Shown: one piece after another, positions 2,577 through 30,574 of the stretch | Numbering within the stretch: the first letter of the stretch is position 1 | How the letters are laid out: every line of letters starts with the position of its first letter | Source of the DNA: Balneolia bacterium | GTDB lineage: Bacteria > Bacteroidota > Rhodothermia > Balneolales > Cyclonatronaceae | Direction of reading: 5' to 3' | DNA length: 32,164 nt | NCBI GenBank assembly: GCA_003555145.1 | Contig: PWID01000292.1 | Span: 1 to 32,164 of the forward strand | Position numbers and translations under genes: made by a program | Notes under the pieces: generated by a model | What the model was told of the DNA's origin: nothing | What the model saw: only the letters and a program-made list of their open reading frames with translations | The model's database searches: none

Positions 2577-2772
2577 GAATGGTATTTCGTATTGGTCAGT
2601 TAGATTATAAGACGACTTGATTGGTATTTTAGAGCCGTTCTTAAACATTATAGGCGAAATGAAGGAAATTGCCAAAACATGCTTCACTTTCAAACTAGCT
2701 TCATCAACAGAGCTTATTTTAGGAATACTACAGGCAAGTCTGTAAGATATTTTACCCAATAAATTATTAGCT

Positions 2773-5455: not shown

Positions 5456-6232
5456 TTACGCTTTTTGATTCGCCTGAAGTTCCGAGCGGAGTAGCAATAC
5501 ATTCATCGCAAATAACGGAAGTTTCATCATTCGGCGCCACCTTGACGGTTGAAGCCACAGTCTGTAAAGCCATTCCAGACCGGTTTTCCGAAATGCCAGT
5601 GGTGCTCTTTTAACAGTACCTGCTATAAAATCGAAACTACCGCCAATGCCGATAATTACCCTGCAACTTGAAAACTGAGAAAGGTTTCTATAAATCCACT
5701 TTTCCTGAGCCGGAGCACCCAGCGCAACAAATATTACGGCTGCAGACTTAAGCTGTGCCTGAGTTTCTTCAGGCAGGTCCTGGAAAGCCATTCCTCGTTC
5801 TTCGGGAGAAAACGTGCCTGAAATATGGAGGTTATTAATTCGCTGCTTAAGTAGATTAGCAGCTTTCGATGCAACCCCGGGCGCGGCTCCGTAAAAAAAG
5901 ACACTTTTGTTATTAACTGCACTCAGTTTGCAAATCTGTTCCAGGGAATCCGAGCCCGTTATACGGTCGACCTGTTTTTTATAGATATGTTTAACGGCCC
6001 AGCTTATTCCCACTCCGTCGGCAGTATTAATGTGTGAGTGATTTAAAATATGCCTGAATTCATCATCATAGATAGAATGAGTGGCAATTTCCGGATTTAC
6101 AGTTATTACAAAAAGCGGTTCAGTAACCTTGCCAGAATCTTTCAGTTTTTCATTAATCGCAAAGTAGAAATCATCTTTTGAATGAGATGAAATTGGTACC
6201 CCTAATATATTGTAGCTGTAGTGCTTTGGCAT
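5456..6232 (-). CDS. WecG/TagA/CpsF-family (GT26) glycosyltransferase
   Basis: A 258-residue enzyme, the usual length for GT26. Motifs in order: FVITVNPEIATHS (41-53), HINTADGVGISWA (67-79, containing the Asp72 that corresponds to the proposed catalytic Asp of TagA), VFFYGAAPGVASKAA (111-125), VALGAPAQEKWI (169-180), IGIGGSFDFIAG (194-205), and the basic C-terminal appendage KRAPLAFRKTGLEWLYRL with PSRWRRM that places the enzyme at the membrane. Known members add the second sugar (e.g. ManNAc or ManNAcA) to undecaprenyl-PP-GlcNAc, which fits the WecA-like initiating transferase at 27870-29804. It is preceded by a full-consensus sigma-54-type promoter 31 bases upstream. The exact donor sugar cannot be read from the sequence. 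Confidence 0.92.
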   Translation of the reverse strand: MPKHYSYNILGVPISSHSKDDFYFAINEKLKDSGKVTEPLFVITVNPEIATHSIYDDEFRHILNHSHINTADGVGISWAVKHIYKKQVDRITGSDSLEQICKLSAVNNKSVFFYGAAPGVASKAANLLKQRINNLHISGTFSPEERGMAFQDLPEETQAQLKSAAVIFVALGAPAQEKWIYRNLSQFSSCRVIIGIGGSFDFIAGTVKRAPLAFRKTGLEWLYRLWLQPSRWRRMMKLPLFAMNVLLLRSELQANQKA

Positions 6233-6388: not shown

Positions 6389-7336
6389 CTACTCCTGGCA
6401 TGCCCCTGAATCAAAGCGTTTGCCATTAAGTTTCGAAATCTCTTCTTCTGAAAGCTTTCTGGAATTACTGCGCATATCTGTGAGTATGAGGTCGTGGTCT
6501 CCTGTTGCTACGAGAACTCTGCCTTCACTTATTCTAATACTTCCCGGTAAACCTGTTGAGGATTCCGATGTCATTACGCTCTTAGATACAGCATATCTTT
6601 CTCCACCAATATAACTGTAAGGTGTTCCCCATGGAGAAGCAAAGGGCGCATAGTTAGAAGCCCGGATTAACGCATCGGTCTCCGCTGCCGATGCTGTCCA
6701 GTTAATTTCACCGTTTAATGGCACACTATGCTTTTTGTAGTAACTTCTGTTTTCTAAATTCTGAATCCGCCCTTCAGGAATTTGATTCTTAAGCGCATCA
6801 TCAAGAAGGTTGGAAATCATCTCTATACCAGTTTTAGCACATTTTAAACTCACCGATAAACCTGTATCAGTTGCTTCTGCAGGGATACTTCTTTCATAAA
6901 TCACATTGCCCGTATCAACTCCAGCTTCAATCCGGTGTAAAGATACACCGTGTGCTTGTTCGCGGTTGTAGATTGACCAGCTAGGAGTATTTAAACCTGC
7001 ATATTCGGGTAAGAGACCCGGGTGCAAATTATAGGCACCCATTTTGGGGGCAGTTACTACTTCTGGATGGATAAGATATAATGAATGAACATTAAGCAGG
7101 ATGTCGATTTTTTGCTTAAGCATCCACTTGGCAAATTCCGGCTTTTTAACATTTTCAGCTGGGAATACAATACATCCAAAACGTTTTGCCAGGGTATGAA
7201 CCGGCCCCGCTGTATGTTCGTCGCCCGTTCCGGTAAGTACCGCCTTGAGTTTAAACTCTTCTTTTCGACTTTGGATTAGCTTTAGTGTTTGAAGACCGGC
7301 AGACTCTTCTGCTGCAAGCAGGACATTCAAGGCCAT
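6389..7336 (-). CDS. Sugar N-formyltransferase-like protein (Fmt/ArnA-N fold)
   Basis: A 315-residue formyltransferase. The N-terminal catalytic domain (1-190) has the family triad: Asn103 and His105 in AYNLHPGLLPEYAGL (101-115) and Asp141 in HRIEAGVDTGNVIY (134-147). The C-terminal domain resembles the Fmt/ArnA OB-fold region: LNGEINW followed by ASNYAPFASPWGTPYSYIGG parallels the I-[DN]-W and PxPGAxSY signatures of enzymes that formylate amino sugars. It would transfer formyl from N10-formyl-tetrahydrofolate to an amine. Because of the EPS setting, an amino-sugar (UDP- or dTDP-linked) acceptor is most likely; an aminoacyl-carrier acceptor from the adjacent cassette is the alternative. True methionyl-tRNA formyltransferase is less likely here. 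It is divergent from the cassette (344-base gap). Confidence 0.8.
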   Translation of the reverse strand: MALNVLLAAEESAGLQTLKLIQSRKEEFKLKAVLTGTGDEHTAGPVHTLAKRFGCIVFPAENVKKPEFAKWMLKQKIDILLNVHSLYLIHPEVVTAPKMGAYNLHPGLLPEYAGLNTPSWSIYNREQAHGVSLHRIEAGVDTGNVIYERSIPAEATDTGLSVSLKCAKTGIEMISNLLDDALKNQIPEGRIQNLENRSYYKKHSVPLNGEINWTASAAETDALIRASNYAPFASPWGTPYSYIGGERYAVSKSVMTSESSTGLPGSIRISEGRVLVATGDHDLILTDMRSNSRKLSEEEISKLNGKRFDSGACQE

Positions 7337-7680: not shown

Positions 7681-8700
7681 ATGATGAACATAAACCTATT
7701 TACCACTACCCCGCAATCAGTTGACTTTGAAGGACCTGACTTTCTGAACGAATTAAAGAAGATTGCCAGGTTAAGTGAAAAGCATGGTTTCAGAGGTACA
7801 TTAATCTACAGTGATAACAGACTGGCTGATCCCTGGACACAGGCTGCACTAATAATGAATGAAACCAAAACACTGCTGCCCATGGTTGCGCTTCAGCCGG
7901 TGTACATGCATCCTTATACCGTCGCTAAGAAAATTGCAACTCTTGCCTTATTGTATAACCGTCCGGTAGCTATGAACCTGATTGCCGGGGGCTTTATCAA
8001 CGACCTTAAAGCTCTTAATGATAACACTCCACACGATAAGCGATACGACCGCCTTTGTGAGTACACGGAAATTATTCAAAAGCTTCTCACCTCCTCTCGC
8101 CCTGTTTCTTATGATGGGGAGTTCTATACAATTAAAAACCTGAAGCTTCAACCTGAATTGCCTTCAAATCTTCTTCCTGAATATTATCTTTCGGGCTCAT
8201 CTGAAGCAGCTAAGGATACTGCAGCAAGATTAAATGCAACACTTATTGAATACCCCCAGCCTCCACAGGCTTATGCAGGCGAGAATGGTGAAAACGCGCG
8301 CAAGTTGGTAGGTATTCGTGTCGGCGTGTTGGCTCGAAAGAACCACAAAGAAGCCTGGGACCTTGCCCGCGAACGTTTTCCTAATACACGTGAAGGTCAG
8401 CTATCTCATATACTGGCTACAAAGGTTTCAGATTCAGAGTGGCATAAGACTCTCTCCACGCAGGAGGCCGGAGAAGAGCAGGAGGAACGCGAACCTGTTT
8501 ACTGGATGGGACCGTTCAAACACTATCAAACATTTTGTCCATATTTAGTTGGCGATTTAGATGAGGTTGCATCAGAGATTCGCAATTACATAGAAAAAGG
8601 TTGTTCACTATGTGTACTGGATATACCAGTTAGTGAAGATGAGCTGAAATTTACTGCCGAGGCATTTAAAAGAGCTAATGAAATGGCTTTTGCAAAATGA
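7681..8700 (+). CDS. LLM-class flavin-dependent monooxygenase (SsuD/natural-product type)
   Basis: A 339-residue bacterial-luciferase-fold protein. Signatures: an N-terminal strand with FTTTPQSVDF, a substrate/flavin-side segment RPVAMNLIAGGF (94-105), the block HDKRYDRLCEYTEIIQKLL (118-136) followed by YDGEFYTIKNL (144-154), and EYYLSGSSEAAKDTAARL (167-184), all typical of SsuD-like FMNH2-dependent monooxygenases. Members take reduced flavin from a separate reductase and insert one oxygen atom; relatives are embedded in nonribosomal peptide clusters. The next gene overlaps its stop by 4 bases (ATGA), so the two are translationally coupled and probably act on the same intermediate. No flavin reductase is encoded in the window. 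Desulfonation cannot be excluded, but the neighbours favour oxidation of an activated amino acid or related group. Confidence 0.85.
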   Translation: MMNINLFTTTPQSVDFEGPDFLNELKKIARLSEKHGFRGTLIYSDNRLADPWTQAALIMNETKTLLPMVALQPVYMHPYTVAKKIATLALLYNRPVAMNLIAGGFINDLKALNDNTPHDKRYDRLCEYTEIIQKLLTSSRPVSYDGEFYTIKNLKLQPELPSNLLPEYYLSGSSEAAKDTAARLNATLIEYPQPPQAYAGENGENARKLVGIRVGVLARKNHKEAWDLARERFPNTREGQLSHILATKVSDSEWHKTLSTQEAGEEQEEREPVYWMGPFKHYQTFCPYLVGDLDEVASEIRNYIEKGCSLCVLDIPVSEDELKFTAEAFKRANEMAFAK

Positions 8701-10298
8701 TGATTTACGATTATTCGCGTCTTCAAGCTGAGAAAAGGCCCGATGCGCCTGCTATTACAATGGGTAACAAATCTGTTACTTACAGAGAACTTGAAAAAAA
8801 GAGCAACCAGTTCGCTGAATTACTCATACAAAATGGTCTTAAACCGGGAGACCGTGTTTGTCTTTATGCTGAAAAACGTCCTGCCACCATTATAGCAATG
8901 CTTGGGGTTATGAAAGCAGGTGGAGCTTATGTGCCCCTGGACATTAACAGCCCGGCCGAACGAATTGTGCGAATGATTCTTTCAGCATATCCTGCGTTTT
9001 TACTTATAGATGATGCTTCTATAGCAACATACCCTGATTTAGTATCCACAGACAGCTCTGTCTCCAGGATACCGTTGATCTGGTGGTCAGAAAGTGTTTC
9101 ACGGCAAAACCTATCCAATGTATCATTTTCACTTAGTGATTTAGCAGAAGTAAAGAATATACCCCACGTAGTTGTAAGGGATGCTGAATCAACTGCCCAC
9201 ATATTGTTTACCTCCGGATCAACAGGTTTACCTAAAGGAGTGGTAATTAAGCATATCAATGTAACAGCTTTTGTTAACTGGGCCGTATCCTATTTTAACA
9301 TGAAGCCTGGTGAGCGGAATTCCGGCCACTCTCCCCTGCACTTCGATTTGTCTACCTACGATATTTATGGAACATTCGCTGCAGGCGGTGAGCTGTTCCC
9401 TGTTCCGGTAGATATGAGCGTCCATCCGGCCAAGCTCGTTTCATTTATAAAGGATAATAATCTTGATCAGTGGTTTTCTGTACCATCAGCGCTTAACTAT
9501 CTGGCACGTTTCAAAGCCATACCAAAAGAAGGCTTTCCGCAGCTAAAACGGCTAATCTGGTGTGGTGAAGTGTTCCCGTTGCCAGGGTTACAGTATTGGA
9601 TGGAAAACCTGCCGAAGGTGCAGTTCACAAACCTTTACGGGCCCACTGAAGCCACAATTGCAAGCAGTTACCACACGCTTTCAGAAATTCCTGAAAAAGA
9701 CATTCCTATTGGTATGGCTTGCGATAAAGAGGCATTACTTGTACTTGACGAAAATCTGAAACCCGTTCTTGATGGCGTAAAGGGGCATCTGTATATATCA
9801 GGAGCTGGATTAAGCCCCGGTTACTGGGTTAGTCCGAATCCTGAGGTAAATCACACCTTACCGACATCTCCTTTCAGGAGTTTTATACATGAAAATGGAG
9901 ATACAGAACGTATATATAAAACCGGAGATCTTGCATCAGTTGGTAAAAACAGCCTTGTATACTTTCATGGCAGAGCTGATTACCAAATAAAAAGCAGAGG
10001 ATATCGTATTGAATTAGGTGAAATTGAAGCAGCACTTGGCACAAGCCAAATCTTGCGTGAATTTGCCGTAGTACCCGTTGAAAAAGGTGGATTTGAGGGT
10101 ACATCAATTGGTTGTGCTTTTGTGTTATCTGATACTGCTGATACGAATACTCGACCGGAACCTAAGCTAAAAAAAACACTACAACAGCTTGTTCCTCCGT
10201 ATATGATTCCTCATTTTTGGAGAGCGTATGATAAGCTTCCAAGAAACGCCAATGGTAAAATTGACCGAAGAAAGATTTCTGATCATTTCGAAAATTAG
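8697..10298 (+). CDS. Stand-alone amino-acid adenylation enzyme (NRPS A-domain type)
   Basis: 533 residues covering a complete adenylation domain and nothing else. Core motifs: A3 FTSGSTGLPKG (171-181), A4 HFDLSTYDIYG (215-225), A5 NLYGPTEAT (312-320), A7 YKTGDL (407-412), A8 GRADYQIKSRGYRIELGE (425-442) and A10 NANGKID with Lys521. Asp217 aligns with GrsA Asp235, the residue that holds the alpha-amino group, so an amino-acid substrate is likely. By hand alignment the ten-residue specificity code is D-L-Y-S-I-C-L-I-A-K. The first three positions recall glycine/cysteine-type codes, but the whole does not match a code I know. It would form aminoacyl-AMP and load the ACP at 10339-10599. It overlaps the monooxygenase gene by ATGA; Met2 (8700) is an alternative start. 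Confidence 0.92.
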   Translation: MMIYDYSRLQAEKRPDAPAITMGNKSVTYRELEKKSNQFAELLIQNGLKPGDRVCLYAEKRPATIIAMLGVMKAGGAYVPLDINSPAERIVRMILSAYPAFLLIDDASIATYPDLVSTDSSVSRIPLIWWSESVSRQNLSNVSFSLSDLAEVKNIPHVVVRDAESTAHILFTSGSTGLPKGVVIKHINVTAFVNWAVSYFNMKPGERNSGHSPLHFDLSTYDIYGTFAAGGELFPVPVDMSVHPAKLVSFIKDNNLDQWFSVPSALNYLARFKAIPKEGFPQLKRLIWCGEVFPLPGLQYWMENLPKVQFTNLYGPTEATIASSYHTLSEIPEKDIPIGMACDKEALLVLDENLKPVLDGVKGHLYISGAGLSPGYWVSPNPEVNHTLPTSPFRSFIHENGDTERIYKTGDLASVGKNSLVYFHGRADYQIKSRGYRIELGEIEAALGTSQILREFAVVPVEKGGFEGTSIGCAFVLSDTADTNTRPEPKLKKTLQQLVPPYMIPHFWRAYDKLPRNANGKIDRRKISDHFEN

Positions 10299-10338
10299 CA
10301 TCAAAAAGAATAATCTAAAATGAAACTGTTCTGATAAA

Positions 10339-10599
10339 ATGGCAAACGCTACATCTAAACAAGATTCAGTCGAAACACGTGTGCATATGGTTCTTTGCGA
10401 CTTGTTGTTAATGGATGCCCTGGATCCCGATGTTGATCTTTTCGAAGAGGGATATCTGGATTCTATGGCTCTTGTAAACCTGATGATGGCACTCGAACAA
10501 GAATTCGGAATTGTAATCGCACCTGAAGATCTTGATATGGAAGACTACCGAAACCCTGAACGCATTAAGGCAATGATAAGCCGTATGCAGGCGGTTTAA
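10339..10599 (+). CDS. Acyl/peptidyl carrier protein
   Basis: An 86-residue acidic helical protein. The sequence EEGYLDSMALVNLMMAL (36-52) contains the D-S-[ML] phosphopantetheine site, with Ser42 predicted to carry the arm. The second conserved block, EFGIVIAPEDLDMEDYRN, is the usual helix II-III region. It lies 40 bases after the adenylation gene and 20 bases before the GNAT gene, so it is the presumed acceptor of the activated amino acid. It is not next to fatty-acid synthesis genes, which argues against its being the housekeeping AcpP. A phosphopantetheinyl transferase must come from elsewhere in the genome. Confidence 0.92.
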   Translation: MANATSKQDSVETRVHMVLCDLLLMDALDPDVDLFEEGYLDSMALVNLMMALEQEFGIVIAPEDLDMEDYRNPERIKAMISRMQAV

Positions 10600-10619
10600 G
10601 GTTAATACTTTATTCTCTT

Positions 10620-11738
10620 ATGAAAATAACTGATACTGAAAAAGATAACGCAGTTAAGCGAAAATTCTCAATACGGGCTTTTACTCCTGATGATATTGAG
10701 GCAGTCGTTGATATGTCGCGCATCCATTTTCCTCAGTGCTCCCTGGTTTCTCCCGGCTATTTGTATGAAACAATTGATGAACTGTATTTCAAGGAGACGT
10801 TAAAGATAGAGGGCATCAACAGCCTTGTTTCTGTTGATGAAAACGAGGTTATAAATGGGTTTCTAGGAGTAACACCAAAACCCTATTTATATCAGGGTGA
10901 GAAGGTGCTTGGTGCTTTATGCAATCACCTTATGGCATCTGATGAAGCGCGTGCTGCGCTTGTGCCGATGAGACTGCTGCAGGAGTTTTTATCAGGACCT
11001 CAGGTGTTTTCTTTTGCGGACGGGTCAGTAGAATCTACAAGGCTTTTATGGAAGCGACTAGGAGGTGAGCCATCTTACAGTAACAGCGTTTATTATAAAG
11101 TGCCACTCCGCCCTATGTCTTTTGGTACCCGACCTTTCCAGAGTCACTTGCCATCATCACTTAGGAGTTCAATTAAAAAAATAAGCTACGGTGCAGACTT
11201 TCTTTTTGGTGTTGCGCGCCTGCCCTTATCCTACAGGATCCGACCGGATTTAACGCTTAAACCGATTGAAACGGACGGAATTTTAACAGGTTTAGCCAGA
11301 GTGTGGAAATATTTTAAACTCATTCCGGATATTTCGAAAAAAGAGCTAAGTAAACTGTTCGAGCTCTTAGACAAAGACCCAAGAAACGGAAATCTTCATA
11401 AAATTGGCATCTGGAATAAGCGGGAAGTACTCATTGGCTGGTTTATCTACTACTCGTCTAAGGGCGGCGTTTGTGAGGTTATGCAGGCTGTTTCTCTTCC
11501 TGGCAAAGAAGCAGAGTTGTTTGAATCAATAACATGGCATGCCTTTTCCGAAGGCGGAACAGAGCTTTCCGGTCGGGCGCTTCCATCGCAAATAGGCACG
11601 CCATTTACTACGAAATCATTCAGTATGCCTGGCCGGATGTGGACACTTTTTCATAGTAAGAACGATGAAATCTGTAGAGCATTACAATCCGACGGAGCTT
11701 TCTTAACCCGTATTGAAGGTGATTTGTGGCTCATATAG
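10620..11738 (+). CDS. GNAT-superfamily acyltransferase, last gene of the carrier-protein cassette
   Basis: 372 residues. The N-terminal part (about 15-170) looks like a GNAT fold: FSIRAFTPDDIEAVVDMSRIHF at the start, then a central strand region around NEVINGFLGVTPKPYLYQG and VLGALCNHLMASDEARAA. The C-terminal half (about 220-365) could be a second, degenerate GNAT-like lobe (LIGWFIYYSSKGGVCEVMQA). Such double-lobed proteins occur in EPS loci with stand-alone ligases and carrier proteins. The most economical role is transfer of the (oxidised) aminoacyl group from the ACP to an amine or hydroxyl of a sugar; this is inference from gene order. The first 10 residues are weakly conserved-looking, so the start is likely but not certain. 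The gene ends before a strong terminator. Confidence 0.7.
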   Translation: MKITDTEKDNAVKRKFSIRAFTPDDIEAVVDMSRIHFPQCSLVSPGYLYETIDELYFKETLKIEGINSLVSVDENEVINGFLGVTPKPYLYQGEKVLGALCNHLMASDEARAALVPMRLLQEFLSGPQVFSFADGSVESTRLLWKRLGGEPSYSNSVYYKVPLRPMSFGTRPFQSHLPSSLRSSIKKISYGADFLFGVARLPLSYRIRPDLTLKPIETDGILTGLARVWKYFKLIPDISKKELSKLFELLDKDPRNGNLHKIGIWNKREVLIGWFIYYSSKGGVCEVMQAVSLPGKEAELFESITWHAFSEGGTELSGRALPSQIGTPFTTKSFSMPGRMWTLFHSKNDEICRALQSDGAFLTRIEGDLWLI

Positions 11739-11762: not shown

Positions 11763-11795
11763 AAAAAGCCTGATTAATTAAATCAGGCTTTTTTT
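11763..11795. terminator. Bidirectional intrinsic terminator between convergent operons
   Basis: AAAAAGCCTGATT (11763-11775) pairs with AATCAGGCTTTTT (11781-11793 onward) around a 5-base loop, with T-runs on both strands. It separates the plus-strand cassette (ending 11738) from the minus-strand GT2 operon (ending 11820). Confidence 0.92.
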
Positions 11796-11819: not shown

Positions 11820-13034
11820 TTACTTAGAGTCTCGCTCTGTCCGAACCCAGTCTACTTCCCGCCCCTTACGCCAGGTATTCAAATAGAGCCGCAGTTTCCA
11901 AAATACGTACTTAGGTAAATGCAGTAACGACTTATACAACTCTTTGTCTGCTCCTCCGATGTACAGGCAAAGAAAGACGTAGAAGAATCCTACGAACCCG
12001 AGCATCAACCACAGAAAGGCAAGGATGGGAGAAAGGAATCCCAGTAATGCCAGAACTGCAGAAAGTATAATCATCACAAGCGTAATGGCCATCATATTAA
12101 CAAAAGGTGGTGTTATCAGATCCAGGAATGTATCAAGTCTGGACAGTGATCTTTTTACGAGGGCATCCTTCAAAAAAGAACCTGCGTAAGTTCGTATGAT
12201 TTGGAAACGGCCAATTTCCCATCTCGAACGCTGTGACTCTGCATTACTGGCTTTTACTGGCATTTGGGCCCATACGGTAGCCTCAGGAGCAAAATCAATA
12301 CTTTCTCCGGCTTGTATTAGAATAAGACCATACTCAACGTCTTCAGTTAAAGACCAGGCCTTCCACGGGGTCTTTCTCAAAACATCCGCGTGAAAACACA
12401 TGCCGTTACCACGAAGCCCCATATTAAACCCCAGTGCTTTTCGGCCAAGCGGCTTCACGTAATTATACATCATAAATCCGATTCGGGTGGCCTCAATACT
12501 CCAGTTACCAGGTTGTCGCAACACCAGGTCCGAGCTTTGTATTACACGGCTTCCATTATCCAGATAATGATTAAGCACCTCCAGATAATTGCCTGACGCA
12601 AGACTGTCGGAATCGATTACAATAAAAGCATCATAGTCAGATTGATTATTTATGATGCTTTCAGCCATAATGGTGTCGAAAGCCCATCTAAGAGCATGGC
12701 CTTTACCCTTCTTTGTTTCATGGGTACGTTCCAGAACCCTGGCCCCCAGTCTTGATGCAATCTCGGCAGTCTTATCGGTACAGTTATCGGCAATTACAAA
12801 AACATCATACAACTTCCTGGGATATACCAAGCCTGAAAGACTGTAAATAGTCTTTGCGATCATCTTCTCCTCGTTGTGCGCAGGCACAACTATGGCAAAC
12901 CTACGCTTTGTGCTGCTATTAAATTCTGTTTTTTTCTTAGCACCTAACGCGATTACCGCAAGAATAAACTGGTAGCCTAAAAGCAAAAAGAAAACGCTGA
13001 AAAGCAGAGCAAAAATGGTGTTGGCGAAGATCAT
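11820..13034 (-). CDS. Membrane GT2 glycosyltransferase with QxxRW motif
   Basis: 404 residues: N-terminal membrane helix (about 5-31), cytoplasmic GT-A domain, and two or three C-terminal helices (about 312-360). GT2 motifs: IVVPAHNEEKMI (48-59), VIADNCTDKTAEIA (80-93), DSD at 141-143 (donor/metal site), TEDVEYG (230-236, catalytic-base region) and QRSRW (268-272). The QxxRW pattern is a mark of processive beta-glycan synthases such as cellulose, chitin and hyaluronan synthases, although non-processive members also carry it. Its start codon overlaps the stop of the GH9 gene (ATGA), so synthase and glycanase are coupled. Donor sugar and linkage cannot be read directly. Confidence 0.9.
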   Translation of the reverse strand: MIFANTIFALLFSVFFLLLGYQFILAVIALGAKKKTEFNSSTKRRFAIVVPAHNEEKMIAKTIYSLSGLVYPRKLYDVFVIADNCTDKTAEIASRLGARVLERTHETKKGKGHALRWAFDTIMAESIINNQSDYDAFIVIDSDSLASGNYLEVLNHYLDNGSRVIQSSDLVLRQPGNWSIEATRIGFMMYNYVKPLGRKALGFNMGLRGNGMCFHADVLRKTPWKAWSLTEDVEYGLILIQAGESIDFAPEATVWAQMPVKASNAESQRSRWEIGRFQIIRTYAGSFLKDALVKRSLSRLDTFLDLITPPFVNMMAITLVMIILSAVLALLGFLSPILAFLWLMLGFVGFFYVFLCLYIGGADKELYKSLLHLPKYVFWKLRLYLNTWRKGREVDWVRTERDSK

Positions 13035-14758
13035 AAGTTTTCTTGTACGCTGTATGGTTGTGTATAATCTGATAGTGAACTTAATACCCAGGCCAGCATG
13101 GCAGTAAAATTTATGGCTGGTTCGCTCACAAAATAGTTTCTGAAAGCATCTTCAAAGTTTTTCGCAGGGTACTTGGATAACTCTTTATTATTAAGAAAAA
13201 CGTAATTGTTTGGACCGCCCACAAGCATGCCCGGTACAGGATTATCGAAATTCCCTACTTTTGATAATTGGTGATATGGATGTTGTACAGCCAGATGCCC
13301 CACCCCTGTTATTTGAGATAGATTTAGAGGATTTCTGCCCATTACGAAATGAAGCTGATCTAGTGCTGCTTCTCTGTACTCTGCATTACCTGTAATCTTC
13401 CATGCCTGTACCAGATCGTGAGCATAAGCCAACCCCACACTATTCGAGCCCCAGTAATATTCTGTATGCTTTAGCAGGTTATCGTAGTTATTGCGATCAC
13501 GTGTATCAAGTAAACCATCGGCATGGCGTATCAGTGCATTTTTAATGTCTTCTTTGCTTTGGGTAAACAGACTGCCCGTATCGCTGAAGTAAAAAGCATG
13601 GAGCGCAAGACTGTGTGCATTTCTCCAGCTGATTGGCTGTAAGGGGCGTATTTGGATCTTGTTATAATTGCCTATAAAATAATCCATAAACGAACGGTCA
13701 GAAGTGAGGTTGTACAGCTCTACTGCTGCCCACAATCGCTCGTCGTTGTCGTTTGTATCTCCATATTCACCTCCGGATACGTCAGGCGGGTTTTTAAATC
13801 CGCCAAGAGGAAGGTTCATAGGGTTAAGGATAAGGTAGTTCCATGCAAGAAGTGCGGCATTTTCGAGCTCGCCGGCAAAAACCGGATTATACGGATACAT
13901 AATTCGGGCACCAATGGCAGCTGTAGCGGCAAAGGAGGCTGTAGCTGCGGTGCTCGGTTCAAACAGATACCGTACAGAAGGATCCGTATGGGGCAAATAT
14001 TCTCCTATCCATCGCTTTTGGGATACTTTGTGGAATAGTGCACCATCGCTGCGCTGCATACTTAACAGCCAGCGCAAGGCCCAGCTTATTTCGTCCAGTA
14101 CATCCGGAATACCATTGCCTGATTCCGGTATACCAAGCTGCCCGTCTGTAAATCTATCTGGATTTTCATCATACATATAAAGCAAGAGCGAGGCGCTCAA
14201 AGTGGTGTTAACCGTGAACTTATTGTAATCTCCCGCATCGTGCCAACCGCCGGTAACATTAATATTAACTGAGGGATTATGATAAAACGGAGCGTCGTCG
14301 AGATGGCAGATTTCATAACTCCACTCTTCACCTAAATCCACACTTACCCCGCACCGATGGTAATAATAGCTGCGGATAACTGTATCAAGAGCCTCTGAAT
14401 ATATATTTTCGCCAATAGTAAACGGAGATGACTTCACCTGATGGTTATCCTGCATTCTTAGAAAAAATGTCCCTGTCAGACCTGCATCAGAGAAGTTTAT
14501 AAGGCCTATCAAATCGCCACTTGCAGGATCTGGTTCCCGAAATGCGCGTATGGTATCGGCAAAGACTACTTCACCCTGGTCTGCACTAACTAGCTGGAAG
14601 ACAGAGCCGGTCTCAGGACTATTTACGAGATAGGCTTTTTTAGGGGCACCGGTTTCATAACCGGTTTGGTTAACGGCTATAAAGGTCTTGTACTCATCCT
14701 TTGAGCAGGAAAAAAGTACAAACAGGAGCGAAACGAGTATGAGTAAGTGATGTTTCAT
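13031..14758 (-). CDS. Glycoside hydrolase family 9 lipoprotein (endoglucanase-like)
   Basis: 575 residues with a lipoprotein signal peptide (hydrophobic 4-16, lipobox LFSC with Cys18). Residues about 25-115 form the Ig-like N-terminal domain common in bacterial GH9 (FIAVNQTGYETGAPKKAYLV); the catalytic (alpha/alpha)6 barrel follows. Key residues: Asp174 and Asp177 in TGGWHDAGDYNKF (169-181, nucleophile/base), HPYHQ at 493-497 (equivalent to the conserved His motif), and Glu546 in VSEPAINF (general acid). Known GH9 enzymes mainly cleave beta-1,4-glucans by inversion. Within an EPS operon, and overlapping a QxxRW-type GT2, it is more likely to trim the nascent or exported polymer than to feed the cell. 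It starts 38 bases after the GT4 gene. Confidence 0.93.
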   Translation of the reverse strand: MKHHLLILVSLLFVLFSCSKDEYKTFIAVNQTGYETGAPKKAYLVNSPETGSVFQLVSADQGEVVFADTIRAFREPDPASGDLIGLINFSDAGLTGTFFLRMQDNHQVKSSPFTIGENIYSEALDTVIRSYYYHRCGVSVDLGEEWSYEICHLDDAPFYHNPSVNINVTGGWHDAGDYNKFTVNTTLSASLLLYMYDENPDRFTDGQLGIPESGNGIPDVLDEISWALRWLLSMQRSDGALFHKVSQKRWIGEYLPHTDPSVRYLFEPSTAATASFAATAAIGARIMYPYNPVFAGELENAALLAWNYLILNPMNLPLGGFKNPPDVSGGEYGDTNDNDERLWAAVELYNLTSDRSFMDYFIGNYNKIQIRPLQPISWRNAHSLALHAFYFSDTGSLFTQSKEDIKNALIRHADGLLDTRDRNNYDNLLKHTEYYWGSNSVGLAYAHDLVQAWKITGNAEYREAALDQLHFVMGRNPLNLSQITGVGHLAVQHPYHQLSKVGNFDNPVPGMLVGGPNNYVFLNNKELSKYPAKNFEDAFRNYFVSEPAINFTAMLAWVLSSLSDYTQPYSVQENL

Positions 14759-14768
14759 TACAACTAAT

Positions 14769-14787
14769 TGTGCTTTTGATTAGCACA
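14769..14787. repeat. Short inverted repeat in the GT4-GH9 gap
   Basis: TGTGCT (14769-14774) and AGCACA (14782-14787) with a 7-base spacer lie just before the GH9 start codon. No T-tract follows, so this is not a standard terminator. It could fold in the mRNA just upstream of the GH9 start, but it is short and may be chance. Confidence 0.3.
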
Positions 14788-14796
14788 GTGCAGGCC

Positions 14797-15933
14797 TCAG
14801 ACAGCTTTTGCAGTTTTTATTTTACGAGAAGAAACCGATACATCAGATTTACCATTGTTTTCATTGATGGAAGCTTCAACCTCTTTACGGATACTTTCAG
14901 CAAATTGCTCCATATTATGATAAGTGTCGATATACTCCTGGGCTTTTCGCCCCATTTTCAAACAACGTTCAGGGTCGTTCCATAAGTCGGTAATTGCTTT
15001 TCTCATCGCTTCAGGATCTCCCTGAGGGATCATAATTCCAGTAACTCCATCCTGTATTACATCAATCTGACCTTCAACCCGGGTACAAATGACCGGTTTT
15101 CCCATCGACATGGATTCAAGTATCGCGGTAAGACCGTTATCAGAGTCGGTCGGAATCAAAGATACCACGGTAAAGCGGCTTCGTGCGTACAATTCACGAA
15201 GTTCGAAAAGCGACTTTTTGCCAACGTCTACATTATCCGGAAGATCGCTTATTGTATACAGGCTTTTTACCGTATCAAAAAGTTCCCCCCTGGAATGGCC
15301 GGTGGCTATATGCAGAGGAATATCAAGTGGCCGCATAGCCTCAACCAGAGTCGGGTAATCCCTGGCTTCCATACCGACTGCGCAAATCATATCACTTTTG
15401 TCTGAATCCAGTTTCCAGAATTTCTGATCCGTGCCTCTTTTAATAAGAATAATTCGGTTTGGGTCGATACCAAGCTCGTTAATTGCGATCTCCCGCTGCT
15501 TGGAAGACCAGATTAGAAATCTGCTTATGGTATCCTTCGTCTTTCTGAGAAACCACATTTTCTGTCGCGTTTTTTTCGCATCAACTGAAGTTATCCTCGA
15601 TATTATTAGGCTATGTGGTTTATTAATGCGAAGCATTTTCATTAAATAAGCCAAAGGCAGTCCTACTTTTTCCGATTGAGAAAGAATTGCATCATAACGG
15701 CTTTGAATAAACAGTGCCTCAATTATCTGGGCATAATGTATGGGAATCATATTATACAGCCACCTCCGTAATGCAGGTGGATTATCCGCTAGATAGCGTT
15801 CATCCAAAAGCTCAGCGTTTACGGCATCTTCAAGAAGTGACCACCGGGGCACCTTTCTTTCAGCTTCCAACCGTCTTATTTCTTCATCTGACGGTTTATT
15901 TATTCCTTTAGATATTATGTAAAGTGTTTTCAT
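14797..15933 (-). CDS. GT4-type (GT-B fold) glycosyltransferase
   Basis: 378 residues, cytoplasmic. The C-terminal half has the GT4 donor-binding features: a strand with ICAVGMEARDYPTLVEAM, then RFTVVSLIPTDSDNGLTAILESMSMGKPVICT, which includes the E-x7-E-like pattern ending before GKPVI, and the trailing EGQIDVIQDGVTGIMIPQGD, typical of retaining GT-B enzymes using nucleotide-sugar donors. The N-terminal half is less conserved, as expected for the acceptor domain. The C-terminal tail (last ~25 residues) is Ser/Lys-rich and probably disordered. It is second in the deacetylase-GT4-GH9-GT2 operon. The donor is unknown. Confidence 0.88.
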   Translation of the reverse strand: MKTLYIISKGINKPSDEEIRRLEAERKVPRWSLLEDAVNAELLDERYLADNPPALRRWLYNMIPIHYAQIIEALFIQSRYDAILSQSEKVGLPLAYLMKMLRINKPHSLIISRITSVDAKKTRQKMWFLRKTKDTISRFLIWSSKQREIAINELGIDPNRIILIKRGTDQKFWKLDSDKSDMICAVGMEARDYPTLVEAMRPLDIPLHIATGHSRGELFDTVKSLYTISDLPDNVDVGKKSLFELRELYARSRFTVVSLIPTDSDNGLTAILESMSMGKPVICTRVEGQIDVIQDGVTGIMIPQGDPEAMRKAITDLWNDPERCLKMGRKAQEYIDTYHNMEQFAESIRKEVEASINENNGKSDVSVSSRKIKTAKAV

Positions 15934-15947
15934 GTACCTTTATAATT

Positions 15948-15960
15948 CCGGAATATCCGG
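15948..15960. repeat. Palindrome CCGGA-ATA-TCCGG in the deacetylase-GT4 gap
   Basis: A perfect 5-3-5 palindrome sits in the 51-base gap upstream of the GT4 start. Its loop is only 3 bases and no T-tract follows, so it may be a small mRNA hairpin or a protein-binding site. Confidence 0.35.
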
Positions 15961-15984
15961 TGGTTTACAGTCCAGGTGAAAAGT

Positions 15985-16809
15985 TTAGCTTACTTCTGTT
16001 ATCATTCTTTTATTGACGTGCCGTTCTGGTAAAACCTGTTTTTTTTTAAGAGTATGGTAACTCCATTCGAGATACTGATATGGTGTTAACAGCTTTATAA
16101 GAAACTTATACAGAGGAGTGCGTTGGTCTACGGCAAGTCTTCTGAAATCAAGAACAGATTCATCAAATCGAGGTGAGCCACTATATACGCCGCAAGCATA
16201 GGCAAAACCAGCTTTTTCGACTATAGATTGAACGCGTTTGTCTACGGCACCGTAGGGATACGCAAAAGAGTAGACCTCTTCATTTAAGACTTCCTCAATT
16301 TGCTGCTTTGAGCATTTAATCTGGTAAGACGCCTCATCGAGATTTAAATCAAGAAGGTTCTCGTGGCTCATGGTATGCGCACCAATTTCAAAACCAAGCT
16401 TTCTTAGTTCTCTAAGCTGATTATCATCCATCAGCTCATACGTTTCGCAATCATGCTGTTTTTGATCCCATGAGGCTCTGCGAATACTACGATCGCCCAT
16501 CGCAAACACCACGCCTCGCATATTATGGTTAATCATTATTGGCACGGCTTTTTCATAAGTATCCAGGTACCCATCGTCGAAAGTTATTATAATGGGTTTT
16601 GCAGGTAGAGAAAGCTTTCCTTCACGATAAAGCTTATAATCTATAAACGTAATAGGTGTGTAGCCAAACCATTCAATAATCTGCATTTGACTGCGAAAAT
16701 CGTCGGTTGTTACATAATGCATTTGTACAGGGTCATTCGGGGCTGAGTCGATAACTCTGTGATACATCAGAACTTTGATCTCGGGTCTTTTTTTCGATTC
16801 CTTCTTCAT
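15985..16809 (-). CDS. Polysaccharide deacetylase (NodB homology, CE4)
   Basis: 274 residues counted from the ATG at 16809. A longer frame starting with TTG at 16839 exists, but it begins within a few bases of the predicted transcript start, so the ATG is preferred. NodB motifs: IITFDDGYLDTY (74-85; metal-binding Asp79), GAHTMSHENL (143-152; His145 and His149), and SFAYPYGAVDKRV (181-193). It removes N- or O-acetyl groups from a polymer or precursor. No signal peptide or membrane helix is visible, unlike periplasmic PgaB-type enzymes, which suggests a cytoplasmic substrate such as a lipid-linked or nucleotide sugar; this point is inference. It is first gene of its operon, with candidate promoter P3 in front. 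Confidence 0.9.
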   Translation of the reverse strand: MKKESKKRPEIKVLMYHRVIDSAPNDPVQMHYVTTDDFRSQMQIIEWFGYTPITFIDYKLYREGKLSLPAKPIIITFDDGYLDTYEKAVPIMINHNMRGVVFAMGDRSIRRASWDQKQHDCETYELMDDNQLRELRKLGFEIGAHTMSHENLLDLNLDEASYQIKCSKQQIEEVLNEEVYSFAYPYGAVDKRVQSIVEKAGFAYACGVYSGSPRFDESVLDFRRLAVDQRTPLYKFLIKLLTPYQYLEWSYHTLKKKQVLPERHVNKRMITEVS

Positions 16810-16853
16810 CTGATGACTCTTTAATGGGTAGTGGTGCAATCTTCTATACTATT

Positions 16854-16870
16854 TACAATAAACATGCCAA
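16854..16870 (-). promoter_or_regulatory. Candidate sigma-54-type promoter P3 (imperfect -12)
   Basis: Minus strand TTGGCAT-GTTTA-TTGTA: a good -24 element with correct 12-base spacing, but GT instead of GC at -12. The predicted start of about 16843 lies 34 bases before the deacetylase ATG at 16809, the same geometry as P1 and P4. A 5-6-5 inverted repeat (GTAAG 16952-16956, CTTAC 16962-16966) sits about 115 bases upstream of the predicted start and could be an activator site. Confidence 0.45.
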
Positions 16871-17017
16871 CAATGGTATTTGAGAGTTATACATTCTTCA
16901 TGTTTGTTAAACCCCTTTCCAAAGTCTTTAATTGGTTGTTTTGGGTTTAATGTAAGATGCGACTTACGCAGAGATATTAATCATGATAAATAACATGTGT
17001 AATAATGATACAAGTGG

Positions 17018-18316
17018 TTATTTGTCATCATATACTTTTTCTTTTAGTCGCTGCGCTCTGAACTTCGCATATGAAACCGGCATCTTGAGCAGGCCGTGGT
17101 TTATGTATTGAACCTGCATAAGCTGAAATTCTTTATTTGTATGTTTATACAAAAAAGATAACATTCGGGTCGCACTCTTAAGGGGTTCCAACTTCTTTTT
17201 TACTTTATAATGCTCACTAATTAAAACACTGTAATTTGAGAATGCTTTATCCGTAAAATCAAATTTATAGGATTCTGCTCCACGCAAAAGTTCTACCCTG
17301 CTAACACCCTGCTTAATACCATCTTCGATCAGGTCGAGTAAAAGCGCTATACCCGGGCGATATTTTGATGACGGTGATGAATCGCTAAAGCCGCTGATGT
17401 AATCATAATAGCGGTTATTATACTTTATTAGCATACGGGAGGCACAAACGCCATTATCATCGACTGCATGTTTGAGCCACAAAGACTTATTATCAAATGC
17501 ATCAAAAACAATTTTACTGAAGAATGCTACGAAACGCTTATCAAAGAATACGCCCGTGTAACCAAGCATATTCCAGCGCGATTGATGCAGCTCAATTATA
17601 TGATTTATGGCTTTTTCAACGCCATCCCGGCTTGTTACTTCAGTAATTTGGTAACCGTTTTCAGTTTCTGGTTTTTGTGCTTTCAGACACTGTCTTAAAC
17701 GACGCCTTACGCTTCCAGAATCTTTATTTTTAATAAAAGAAGCTAGGTCACTTTCCCCTTCAAGTACTATGTAAGGGCATGTGTCTGATTTTTCGACATT
17801 AACGCTTCTGTTCAGAGAATTGAATCTGGGGAATAAGTGATTATAGATGAAGCTCTCCCCGCTTACGTTTACAAGGTAAAGCTTATAATCTGCAAACGTA
17901 TCCTCATCCATTAGTTGGAAAAAGAAATCTGCCACTTTCTCTTCAAATCCGGGCTTTACAAGTATATCCAGAAAATCATTATAACCGTAAGAATCGGAAA
18001 AGCCCAAAGACTCGTTTCTGTTTCCACCGCTACCTAAAAGCTGAATCCTCTTTTGAGTCTCTTTACCAAGAAGGCTACTTTTACCTGTAAAGAAAGGAAA
18101 GATAGCCACCATTTCATTATTTTCGTAAACGCAATGAATGAACAATTTACGATTAGGATTGTCGCCAAATATATCCCACCAGCTACATATCCAGCTGTAA
18201 GACATAAATACAGTTTGATTCGACTCTGATGCAAGGGTTTCCCAATCTTTTTGCAAACTCAAAAAGGAAGATTTGTCTCTGAAAACTTTAACAGTCAGGT
18301 TGTTTATGGATCTCAT
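17018..18316 (-). CDS. BioF2/CelD-like GNAT acyltransferase (Acetyltransf_6 type)
   Basis: 432 residues, cytoplasmic, no signal peptide. The N-terminal motif LQKDWETLASESNQTVFMSY with SWICSWWDIFG (about 20-52) is the hallmark opening of the CelD/BcsL and FemAB-like acetyltransferases. The central block around SVRRRLRQCLKAQK and the C-terminal GNAT lobe (HQSRWNMLGYTGVF, then YYDYISGFSDSSPSSKYRPG and VSRVELLRGAESYKFDF) follow the same family. Related proteins occur in cellulose and EPS loci and in XrtA-linked EPS loci, and probably acylate sugar amines or hydroxyls. It is last in the Wzz-to-GNAT operon, 35 bases after the GT4 gene. The acyl donor is unknown. Confidence 0.85.
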   Translation of the reverse strand: MRSINNLTVKVFRDKSSFLSLQKDWETLASESNQTVFMSYSWICSWWDIFGDNPNRKLFIHCVYENNEMVAIFPFFTGKSSLLGKETQKRIQLLGSGGNRNESLGFSDSYGYNDFLDILVKPGFEEKVADFFFQLMDEDTFADYKLYLVNVSGESFIYNHLFPRFNSLNRSVNVEKSDTCPYIVLEGESDLASFIKNKDSGSVRRRLRQCLKAQKPETENGYQITEVTSRDGVEKAINHIIELHQSRWNMLGYTGVFFDKRFVAFFSKIVFDAFDNKSLWLKHAVDDNGVCASRMLIKYNNRYYDYISGFSDSSPSSKYRPGIALLLDLIEDGIKQGVSRVELLRGAESYKFDFTDKAFSNYSVLISEHYKVKKKLEPLKSATRMLSFLYKHTNKEFQLMQVQYINHGLLKMPVSYAKFRAQRLKEKVYDDK

Positions 18317-18351
18317 GATTGGTTTTGGTGCTTTAAAATGAGCAGGTCCTG

Positions 18352-19599
18352 CTAAGCGGTTGCAGGTTCTGAAGAAGAATGTGAAGATGTTTTTAGACTA
18401 TTTTCCGAAAACATATGCGATATACATGTATCGATTTCTTTGCAGACGCTTTGCCAATCGTATTTTTCATGAACTAGTTTATGCCCGTTTTCGCTAAGTT
18501 TTGACCTTAGTTCATGGTTTTCAAATAGCCTCATTACCGCATCGGCAAAAGCTTTGGGATCGTCTTCAATAAGGATATTCTTTTCTCTGGTTACATCAAT
18601 ACCTTCACAGCCAATGGAAGTTGATACAACCGGCTTTTTCATAGCAAGAGCTTCCATTACCTTAAGTCGTGTACCACTTCCCATACGCAGTGGCACCACA
18701 TAAACGGATGCTGCATTTATATAGGGCCTTGTGTCTTCTACGAACCCCGTAATTATTACATTTTCAGATGCCTGGCTGGTAATAAACTCAGGGGTATTTT
18801 TACCCACAATGGTAATGGTACAATCCGGATACTTTTTTAATACATGGGGGAATACTTCTTCCAGAAAAAACTGAATCCCATCATAATTTGGCACATATCC
18901 CATCATTCCGACAAAAACCAGAGAATGTGGGTGTTGTATATTCTCGTCAGGCGAAAAAAAAGTGGTATCTACTCCATTAGGGACAAGATATTTAGGTACG
19001 CCGGGGACAGTTATCTCTAACTCGTCGATATCCAGATTACTTGTTACAAGCAGAGCGTTCTGCTGTCTGAGAGCTTCCGTTTCTTCTTTAAAAAAGATAT
19101 CAGCCTGCTTTTTATAAAACCACCTTTTGAGAAGACCGGATACCTGCGTCATTCTGCGGAAGTTATCGTACTCAACATTATGGCAATTTATAATGCTTTT
19201 TACGCTGTATTTGGACGTATACATTCCAATTACCGGGAATTCACTTATCACAAGATCAAATTGTTCTTTTTTGAACAAATTATCGATTATTCGTTCGAAT
19301 TCGACCGATTGGGTTAAAAGCCTCCAGGCGCTTGTATTTGTAAGCACAGATTTTAGCTTAACGATTTCCCTTGAAAGTCCTTCATTTACATGATTATGAA
19401 AGTATGATTTACCTTTCAGTTGGGGGAATTCCTGTATGAGCATCTCTTCCTGCTCTTTTGTTCCGAAACCTGCTACAGTAACATCATAATTATTTAGCAG
19501 ATGCTGTAAAACATGATAAATCCTTAATGCTCCACCAAAATCTGGTTGTACCGGATTGTACGGTACAAGGTGCAAAACTTTCAAGTTAGAGTGTCTCAT
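18352..19599 (-). CDS. GT4-family glycosyltransferase (EPS type)
   Basis: 415 residues, GT-B fold. N-terminal lobe: VLHLVPYNPVQPDFGG (8-23, glycine-rich loop) and SIINCHNVEYDNFRRM (135-150). C-terminal lobe: LVFVGMMGYVPNYDGIQFFL (227-246) and VPLRMGSGTRLKVMEALAM (302-320) with KKPVVST after it, the nucleotide-sugar binding region. This architecture (MxYxPNxD... and GSGTRLKVxEALAM) is the one seen in the sugar transferases of XrtA/PEP-CTERM-type EPS loci and many capsule loci. Its ATG overlaps the flippase stop by 4 bases (ATGA), implying coupled translation. The last ~20 residues are Ser-rich and probably disordered. Confidence 0.9.
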   Translation of the reverse strand: MRHSNLKVLHLVPYNPVQPDFGGALRIYHVLQHLLNNYDVTVAGFGTKEQEEMLIQEFPQLKGKSYFHNHVNEGLSREIVKLKSVLTNTSAWRLLTQSVEFERIIDNLFKKEQFDLVISEFPVIGMYTSKYSVKSIINCHNVEYDNFRRMTQVSGLLKRWFYKKQADIFFKEETEALRQQNALLVTSNLDIDELEITVPGVPKYLVPNGVDTTFFSPDENIQHPHSLVFVGMMGYVPNYDGIQFFLEEVFPHVLKKYPDCTITIVGKNTPEFITSQASENVIITGFVEDTRPYINAASVYVVPLRMGSGTRLKVMEALAMKKPVVSTSIGCEGIDVTREKNILIEDDPKAFADAVMRLFENHELRSKLSENGHKLVHEKYDWQSVCKEIDTCISHMFSENSLKTSSHSSSEPATA

Positions 19600-21098: not shown

Positions 21099-21099
21099 T

Positions 21100-22665: not shown

Positions 22666-22678
22666 TTTATATAGAAAC

Positions 22679-22843
22679 CTATGGTTCCGGCACTTCAATT
22701 GTACCCATCATGTACAGCAGATAAACCACCATTATTGCAGAAACAGAAGCTGTGAGCATATAGGGTACTTTATCGTTCTTGGTGAACTTTGATCCCCAAA
22801 TAACCAGGAAATGCAGTATTACCAGACCGAACAGGATTTTCAT
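22679..22843 (-). CDS. 54-residue two-helix membrane protein, not in known families I recognise
   Basis: A small frame running from the ATG at 22843 to a TAG at 22681-22679. Its start overlaps the stop of the CpsD-like gene (ATGA), and it ends 13 bases before the Wzy-like start. The product begins MKILFGLVILHFLVIWGSKF (helix 1, about 3-18), has a short polar loop TKNDKVPY, then a second helix of about residues 28-46 (MLTASVSAIMVVYLLYMMG) and a short acidic tail (GTIEVPEP). The ATGA overlap, continuous frame and two clean hydrophobic segments argue that it is a real gene. Placement between the length-control ATPase and the polymerase suggests a small partner of the polymerase or Wzz complex; that role is inference. 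I do not recognise a family. Confidence 0.7.
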   Translation of the reverse strand: MKILFGLVILHFLVIWGSKFTKNDKVPYMLTASVSAIMVVYLLYMMGTIEVPEP

Positions 22844-23559: not shown

Positions 23560-23592
23560 ACAAAGAACTCCGGTTATACCTGTCTGTTTGTT

Positions 23593-24915: not shown

Positions 24916-24957
24916 GGTGCAAGTGTATTTATGTGAATCACGTTTGATAGAATTCCT

Positions 24958-24974
24958 AACAATTGCCATGCCAA
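24958..24974 (-). promoter_or_regulatory. Candidate sigma-54-type promoter P4 (imperfect -12)
   Basis: Minus strand TTGGCAT-GGCAA-TTGTT: full -24 element, 12-base spacing, GT in place of GC at -12. The predicted start of about 24947 lies 32 bases before the Wzz-like ATG at 24915. Confidence 0.45.
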
Positions 24975-26053: not shown

Positions 26054-26064
26054 TGAGCAGATTT

Positions 26065-27012: not shown

Positions 27013-27014
27013 TT

Positions 27015-27836: not shown

Positions 27837-27869
27837 TCATAAGCGCTCGTACCGTTTGCACTTACAGCC

Positions 27870-29804: not shown

Positions 29805-29843
29805 GGTTCTGAACACAACACGTAAATAACAGCATTATAGTAA

Positions 29844-30545: not shown

Positions 30546-30574
30546 ATCAGCAATCCCAAATACTTCATCACTGT

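Follow-up and report, generated by a model that had tools for sequence, protein, structure and literature searches.

A conserved four-gene carrier-protein cassette with a proposed role in exopolysaccharide decoration in Balneolales

Introduction

The genes that activate amino acids and place them on bacterial surface glycans are often unclear. Chemically, amino acids on a surface glycan are known, as in C. difficile flagellin, where a taurine-Ala-Gly cap is carried on Fuc3N (PMC5207245). The stretch of DNA analysed here (32,164 nucleotides of a Balneolia bacterium, contig PWID01000292.1; hereafter the window) raises the question of what an amino-acid-activating carrier-protein system does inside an exopolysaccharide (EPS) locus. 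A previous reading of the letters and open reading frames (the sequence-only reading) had proposed a miniature nonribosomal pathway that decorates the EPS.

Cassette layout and surrounding locus

Four forward-strand genes lie in one run within the EPS locus, at the coordinates originally assigned: an LLM-class flavin monooxygenase of SsuD/MsuD fold (LLM; 7681..8700), a stand-alone, DltA/AlmE-like amino-acid adenylation protein (A-protein; 8697..10298), a DltC-like carrier protein (ACP; 10339..10599) and a tandem-GNAT acyltransferase (GNATx; 10620..11738). The LLM stop and the A-protein start overlap by ATGA and the carrier protein has 86 residues, both as first read. The single terminator described after the cassette was found as an intrinsic terminator with a 13-bp stem (11763..11793), but it is symmetric and thus bidirectional, serving the convergent GT2 gene as well. 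All four proteins look soluble, which would make them amenable to in vitro work.

Condensation, thioesterase and ketosynthase domains were absent from the window proteins scanned, in line with the sequence-only reading, and a modular NRPS was rejected on the missing condensation and thioesterase domains.

Upstream, on the reverse strand, lie a sugar N-formyltransferase-like gene of ArnA-N type (FormylT; 6389..7336), which most relatives also have as the divergent neighbour of the cassette, and a conserved neighbour encoding a WecG/TagA/CpsF glycosyltransferase (5456..6232). Downstream, the EPS core (11820..24981, reverse strand) comprises GT2, GH9, GT1, a PgaB-like deacetylase, a FemAB-type GNAT (17018-18316), GT1, Wzx, Wzy, a ParA-like ATPase and an XrtA-like Wzz. 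It is followed by an export and initiation half (25247..31837, forward strand) with a Wza-like protein, a beta-barrel-like outer membrane protein (weak match), a sigma54-type AAA protein, a WecA-like GT4 fusion, a GNAT and GH5. No DegT sugar aminotransferase was found in the window locus, and the genome yielded weak DegT-family matches only.

Conservation across genomes

The A-protein gene adjoins the LLM gene in all 16 Balneolales genomes that have the cassette LLM (16/16). The ACP gene comes next in 15/15 assessable genomes and the acyltransferase gene next in 14/14, so that the four genes are kept in order, and not separated, in the relatives, an outcome in favour of the sequence-only reading, which had named separation in most relatives as a refutation. 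This order is constant over four families of Balneolales and the 4-base LLM/A-protein overlap recurs in 12 of the 16 genomes, for which reasons chance adjacency was rejected. In these relatives the cassette is flanked by glycan genes (FormylT, WecG, hexapeptide transferase, DegT, GH9/GT2). One homologous EPS locus (L113) has no cassette and holds a DegT/FemAB/hexapeptide/short AMP-binding set between the deacetylase and GH9, which fits the cassette being an exchangeable decoration module of the EPS locus.

Outside the order, LLM, A-protein and ACP recur without GNATx in Nitrospira defluvii and in an ANGP1 bacterium; in N. defluvii they are followed by methyltransferase, PglD-like, FemAB GNAT, GNAT and DegT aminotransferase genes. 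A scan of plasmids with the A-protein gave NRPS- and DltA-like matches only (about 34% identity or less), and one of the matches opened is a DltA-like ligase paired with an ACP, with an NRPS nearby.

Adenylation protein and carrier protein

The A-protein matches PF00501 (E = 6.5e-73) and scores above the cut-off of the amino-acid adenylation model TIGR01733 (332 against 317 bits), but stays below those of the DltA equivalog TIGR01734 (302.5 against 559.85 bits) and of ligase_PEP_1 (209 against 592 bits). Its pocket residues were mapped on EntF, a procedure that recovered the known EntF code (DVWHFSLVDK) as a control. The pocket reads DLYFICLIAK, with Phe at position 278, and Asp217 falls at the position of GrsA Asp235, as had been suggested. 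Pocket identity is highest to AlmE (4oxi; 7/10), followed by DltA (5/10), PltF (4/10) and EntF (3/10). We take PDB entry 4oxi to be AlmE in a structure with glycine; its title in the PDB table is 'Enterobactin synthetase component F-related protein'. These residues point strongly to a small amino acid as the substrate for adenylation, of which glycine would be the most likely.

The ACP matches PF00550 (E = 5.9e-12) and carries, by alignment, the phosphopantetheine site LDS42M. It scores below both DltC equivalogs (TIGR01688, 42 bits, cut-off 52.35; NF003464, 47.9 bits, cut-off 68). PPTases are encoded in the genome.

Flavin monooxygenase

The LLM protein matches PF00296 (E = 2.8e-36), and Foldseek of its AlphaFold model confirmed the TIM-barrel LLM fold (TM 0.81 to MsuD), SsuD/MsuD being the closest solved structures. 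The description as SsuD-like holds for the fold but not for the sulfonate site: of the SsuD sulfonate-site residues, C54, H228, R297 and Y331 are L, G, Y and P in the window, R226 alone is kept, and the same four are substituted in every cassette LLM. With an SsuD equivalog score of 106 bits against a cut-off of 518, the cassette LLM is, judged by its sequence, not an SsuD, and SsuD-type sulfonate metabolism was rejected on the lost active-site residues. The natural-product LLM domain TIGR04020 is absent from its 14 NCBIfam matches at 1e-3.

Relatives outside the order (Tritonibacter, Rhizobium, Gemmobacter, Streptomyces) lie in natural-product-like clusters. Those at 43-45% identity adjoin AMP-ligase and PPTase genes, accompanied in different clusters by genes for a PCP, an acyl-CoA dehydrogenase, a P450 or a halogenase, and the Streptomyces relative (36%) adjoins an NRPS. 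The alphaproteobacterial relatives have nearly the same active-site substitutions as the cassette LLM. In the LLM tree, whose base is open and whose branches are long and which was used only for this separation, the carrier-associated LLMs stand apart from the SsuD group. No flavin reductase gene lies within the cassette; one is present elsewhere in the genome.

Tandem GNAT

The window GNATx by itself has no sequence match in Pfam, NCBIfam or PDB. AlphaFold predicts it (pLDDT 88) to be a tandem GNAT, for which Foldseek returned N-myristoyltransferases (NMTs) and Eis-like GNATs (E ~1e-13, TM ~0.55; 13-16% identity to NMTs), so the earlier 'GNAT-like' holds for the fold and is refined to the NMT/Eis-type tandem architecture. 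With a GNATx profile, NMTs were the sole PDB sequence matches (E ~0.01), and among 17 GNATx members no Pfam GNAT model exceeded threshold (best, Acetyltransf_9, E 0.021). Remote homologues elsewhere occupy AsnB-ACP-ligase-NadE groups, adjoin ligase_PEP_1-like genes at two loci (L023, L053) or, in one case, lie in a glycan cluster without a ligase. GNATx offers a bacterial NMT-like transferase family, ACP-linked in at least two phyla (that of the window and Alphaproteobacteria). It has the tandem-GNAT architecture of eukaryotic NMT and of Eis, but its donor is presumably an ACP thioester, where that of NMT is myristoyl-CoA.

Comparison with known systems

In AlmEFG, which glycylates lipid A in Vibrio cholerae, a stand-alone A-domain, a carrier and a transferase act together to attach an amino acid to a glycolipid of the envelope (PMC12930378, PMC3783018). 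The cassette has the same three kinds of component and shares 7 of 10 pocket residues with AlmE, but AlmG, whose target is lipid A, belongs to the LPLAT-type acyltransferases, whereas the acyltransferase of the cassette is a tandem GNAT encoded within an EPS locus, and Alm has no LLM monooxygenase. DltA and DltC are among the best named families for the A-protein and the ACP. Both proteins nevertheless fall below the equivalog cut-offs and DltD was not found in the genome (B. subtilis and L. lactis controls were positive), so a true Dlt system was rejected; MBOAT was also absent from the window proteins scanned. To our knowledge, teichoic acid is not expected in this Gram-negative phylum.

In the butirosin side-chain pathway (BtrI/J/K/O/V/H), an ACP-borne amino acid is reportedly transferred to an aminoglycoside. 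BtrJ is not known as an NRPS-type A-domain, in contrast to the TIGR01733 ligase of the cassette. BtrO is an LLM-superfamily enzyme that hydroxylates the ACP-bound amino acid (PMC2922099). The cassette likewise encodes an LLM together with an ACP and may carry out a comparable step on the carrier, BtrO being likened here by description and not by sequence. BtrH is another kind of transferase, and its acceptor is an antibiotic, where that of the cassette would be the precursor of a polymer. The carrier-protein LLM clusters of Alphaproteobacteria and Streptomyces share the LLM and its AMP-ligase and PCP/PPTase neighbours, but have a small-molecule context and lack GNATx and glycan genes. XrtA/exosortase EPS modules likewise combine an adenylating ligase with an ACP, and the window Wzz is XrtA-like; it nevertheless scores below the XrtA-type cut-off (167 against 279 bits), as does the A-protein below that of ligase_PEP_1.

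Literature searches on LLM, carrier protein and EPS and on ACP-dependent O-antigen aminoacylation gave no description of the gene set, and the text of an E. coli O-antigen survey does not mention such genes. The view that no described system has exactly these genes was borne out to that extent, but since AlmEFG, Dlt and butirosin BtrI/J/O/H are known, each half of the cassette has precedent and the kind of machine is not without it. Of these precedents, AlmEFG and butirosin BtrI/O/H had been overlooked in the sequence-only reading.

Discussion

The proposed miniature nonribosomal pathway was retained in part, as a conserved, polysaccharide-linked set for amino acid activation, carrier loading, putative oxidation and transfer, its A-domain now refined to a DltA/AlmE-like one with a putative glycine-type pocket. 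We consider it probable that the four genes encode a miniature pathway on a carrier protein, in which an amino-acid-derived acyl group is made and joined to a precursor of the EPS of the surrounding locus. The substrate that the A-protein would activate and load on holo-ACP is a very small amino acid, glycine being the likeliest. The LLM would oxidise the ACP-bound acyl group with FMNH2 from a reductase encoded elsewhere, and GNATx would take this group off the pantetheine thioester and pass it to an amine, which probably belongs to an amino sugar linked to a nucleotide or a lipid on the cytoplasmic side. Overall, this would combine an AlmEFG/Dlt-like arrangement (A-domain, carrier and transferase on an envelope glycan) with a butirosin-like LLM step on the carrier and another transferase class. 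More tentatively, and with somewhat less than even confidence, the cassette may stand beside Dlt and Alm as a third class of surface aminoacylation that depends on a carrier protein, in which LLM-oxidised glycyl-ACP (e.g. N-hydroxyglycyl or glyoxylyl) is passed by GNATx to an EPS amino sugar.

The resemblance of the A-protein and ACP to DltA/DltC and AlmE, and the GNATx homologues that accompany ACP-ligase pairs without LLM, would also suit an oxidation-free, Dlt/Alm-like system in which plain glycine or alanine is put on the polymer by the A-protein, ACP and GNATx, with the sugar or the finished amide as the target of the LLM. We regard this as unlikely, as the LLM gene overlaps the A-protein gene in most relatives and remains with A-protein and ACP where GNATx is missing, and its nearest outside relatives are carrier-protein-associated.

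The LLM relatives found with halogenase, P450 or NRPS genes make it conceivable that the product is a diffusible small molecule (a signal, an antibiotic or something siderophore-like), the genes being merely located in the EPS locus. This is less likely still, given the glycan genes next to the cassette in the Balneolales relatives, where exporter, C or TE genes were not found to accompany it, and the other decoration set in the cassette-free L113 locus. An N-formyl(oxidised)glycyl group, formed if the adjacent FormylT acted on the carrier-bound amino acid (cf. LgrA F-domain), draws some support from the divergent position of FormylT in most relatives but appears very improbable: in NCBIfam this protein matches ArnA and further sugar formyltransferases best, its gene is on the opposite strand, and in G143 (L019) a hexapeptide transferase takes its place. 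A sulfur-scavenging alkanesulfonate monooxygenase beside unrelated genes can practically be dismissed, since despite the SsuD/MsuD fold the four site residues are changed and the score is far below cut-off, and no ssuABC neighbours were found.

The cassette offers a compact four-gene marker set for amino acid decoration of surface glycans and would link nonribosomal on-carrier chemistry with exopolysaccharide assembly. If the third-class reading is true, the product would be a glycan substituent so far undescribed.

Gene content and conservation of the cassette

All four ORFs of the cassette were found at the positions assigned to them by the sequence-only reading. The gene of the luciferase-like flavin monooxygenase (LLM; 7681-8700, Bac_luciferase 2.8e-36 in Pfam/NCBIfam) overlaps by ATGA that of the stand-alone adenylation protein (A-protein; 8697-10298, AMP-binding 6.5e-73, TIGR01733 332 bits against a cut-off of 317). 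The carrier protein (ACP; 10339-10599, PP-binding 5.9e-12, LDS42M site) and a tandem-GNAT acyltransferase (GNATx; 10620-11738) follow, the latter with no match in Pfam, NCBIfam or PDB sequences. A terminator at 11763-11793 (13-bp stem, T-runs on both strands), common to a convergent glycosyltransferase gene, closes the run. A PPTase and a flavin reductase are encoded in the same genome.

GNATx was present in 10 of 395 genomes sampled from the phylum; within the order, 16 of 129 genomes had the LLM. Relatives with names were Balneolia/Balneolaceae MAGs. The A-protein gene lay directly 3' of the LLM gene in 16/16 fetched regions, followed by the ACP in 15/15 and GNATx in 14/14 assessable regions, as two contigs run out before the end of the cassette. 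LLM and A-protein genes overlapped by four bases in 12 of the 16 and by one base in three, with a 4-base gap in one. The four genes were uninterrupted in 10/14; genomes G429, G465, G466 and G470 carried an extra GNAT-type gene, either FemAB-type between ACP and GNATx (G429, G470) or a PseH-like GNAT of 172-177 aa between A-protein and ACP (G465, G466, G470). A decayed copy in G336 (L052:3663-6919) retained an LLM remnant of 128 aa and an A-domain with Gly at the Asp235 equivalent, and no ACP was found in it.

Nitrospira defluvii has the LLM, A-protein and ACP genes in the same order and no GNATx, as does an ANGP1 bacterium. The Nitrospira run continued with a methyltransferase, PglD-like hexapeptide transferase, FemAB GNAT, GNAT and DegT aminotransferase. 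The ANGP1 A-domain gene is broken into two overlapping frames (L036:1610-3222), possibly by a frameshift or assembly error.

Exopolysaccharide locus

Upstream and divergent from the cassette lie WecG and an ArnA-like formyltransferase; downstream are GT2, GH9, GT1, a PgaB-like deacetylase, FemAB-type GNAT, GT1, Wzx and Wzy, and further an ATPase, XrtA-like Wzz, Wza, WecA-like GT4 and GH5. In most relatives the divergent flank holds WecG, formyltransferase and a hexapeptide transferase (DapD/WbbJ/NeuD-like matches), and DegT and a FemAB-type GNAT are often found 3' of the cassette. No strong DegT aminotransferase match was detected in the window's genome (94% complete).

The homologous stretch of G061 (locus L113; Wzx, GT1, deacetylase, GH9, GT2) lacks the cassette and carries, between deacetylase and GH9 (L113:4392-9112), DegT, a FemAB GNAT and a hexapeptide protein, together with an AMP-binding protein of 389 aa. 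We therefore read the two gene sets as a probable exchangeable decoration module. Two cassette-free genomes of the same genus also lacked the GH9 gene.

The two cellulase-type hydrolases within the locus (GH9 and GH5; 13031-14758 and 30575-31837) suggest a beta-glucan-like backbone or its trimming. At 27870-29804 a CoA_binding_3/EPS_sugtrans N-terminal domain is fused to the WecA-like GT4, an unusual union of two initiating-transferase types. Within this Balneolales genome, window positions 615-2843 encode a Firmicute-type fructose-1,6-bisphosphatase (FBPase_2, 985 bits).

Monooxygenase

The LLM AlphaFold model (pLDDT 83) matched MsuD, SfnG and SsuD best in Foldseek (TM up to 0.81). Among SsuD residues C54, R226, H228, R297 and Y331, which form the sulfonate site, R226 alone is kept; in every cassette LLM the remaining four have been exchanged. 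In a tree whose base is partly open, the LLM stands apart from SsuD. The nearest relatives outside these clusters (43-45%) occur in plasmid clusters of Tritonibacter, Rhizobium and Gemmobacter with AMP-ligases, a PPTase and variously a carrier protein, acyl-CoA dehydrogenase, P450 or halogenase. In Streptomyces, a relative at 36% adjoins an NRPS. Together, the replaced residues, the separation from SsuD and these gene contexts point to a carrier-bound substrate. A precedent is BtrO of butirosin, which belongs to the same superfamily and hydroxylates the side chain of an amino acid (PMC2922099); PKS/NRPS lines employ other LLMs (PMC8739492).

Three clusters on alphaproteobacterial plasmids (L091:1664-16910, L092:7964-15029, L093:450-6292) combine an LLM and a PPTase with one or more AMP-ligases and, variously, a carrier protein, P450, halogenase or acyl-CoA dehydrogenase; they have the appearance of carrier-protein natural-product clusters not yet described, perhaps of pyrrolyl type.

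Adenylation pocket

Pocket codes were read by mapping on EntF, whose known code DVWHFSLVDK was returned as a control. The window's pocket is D-L-Y-F-I-C-L-I-A-K, with F in place of Y in most orthologues. The best solved relatives, for the pocket region only, were DltA (D-Ala), the L-prolyl-carrier ligase 6o6e, presumably PltF, and 4oxi, taken here as AlmE with glycyl-AMP, an identity absent from the table entry. Agreement was 7/10 with AlmE (DLHLFCLIAK), 5/10 with DltA (DLMTLCTVAK), 4/10 with PltF (DLLYLALVCK) and 3/10 with EntF; the Nitrospira pocket matched AlmE at 8/10. These matches, highest for AlmE, argue for a very small amino acid as substrate, with glycine as the leading candidate. 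Alanine may also serve, because AlmE can mis-activate D-Ala (PMC12930378). The A-protein itself was ruled out as a DltA (302 of 560 bits).

Transferase family

The GNATx model (pLDDT 88, pTM 0.85) matched N-myristoyltransferases (NMT) and Eis-like GNATs in Foldseek (E about 1e-13, TM about 0.55), and a 17-member profile matched only N-myristoyltransferases in the PDB (E about 0.01). These NMTs are eukaryotic, and the family (A5) may comprise bacterial relatives of NMT. Of the 17 aligned proteins, 15 stop flush behind a GDLW or equivalent motif, an end presumably resembling the catalytic C-terminus of NMT.

Remote homologues (about 26%) accompany AsnB, ACP, adenylating ligase and NadE-like genes on Nitratireductor, Mesorhizobium and Sinorhizobium plasmids, those of two distant members of the window's phylum adjoin ACP and ligase_PEP_1-like genes, and a further one belongs to a glycan cluster that has no ligase. 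By gene context, the family is therefore tied to carrier proteins and glycans independently of the cassette. GNATx also matched Ensifer. GNATx, AsnB, ACP, a ligase_PEP_1-like ligase and a NadE-like protein form a recurring uncharacterised group (L023:4516-10456, L053:3663-9540, L095:11944-17884, L096:12016-18066, L102:5917-12021) in alphaproteobacterial plasmids and distant members of the window's phylum.

Comparison with known systems and proposed function

No description of the gene set was found in the open-access literature searched. The cassette is set apart from Dlt by scores below the cut-offs and by the lack of DltD, from Alm by transferase class and from modular NRPS by its domains, and its LLM differs from SsuD in the residues described. 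By analogy, it would act in the manner of AlmEFG or Dlt and add a step of the butirosin kind. The sequences establish the composition of the cassette and its conservation, the type of pocket, the loss of the sulfonate site, the transferase fold and the presence of a PPTase and a flavin reductase in the genome; the cassette is real, conserved and under-described. The A-protein would load glycine onto the ACP, the acyl group would be oxidised on the carrier and transferred to an amino sugar, and the EPS would be affected by this action.
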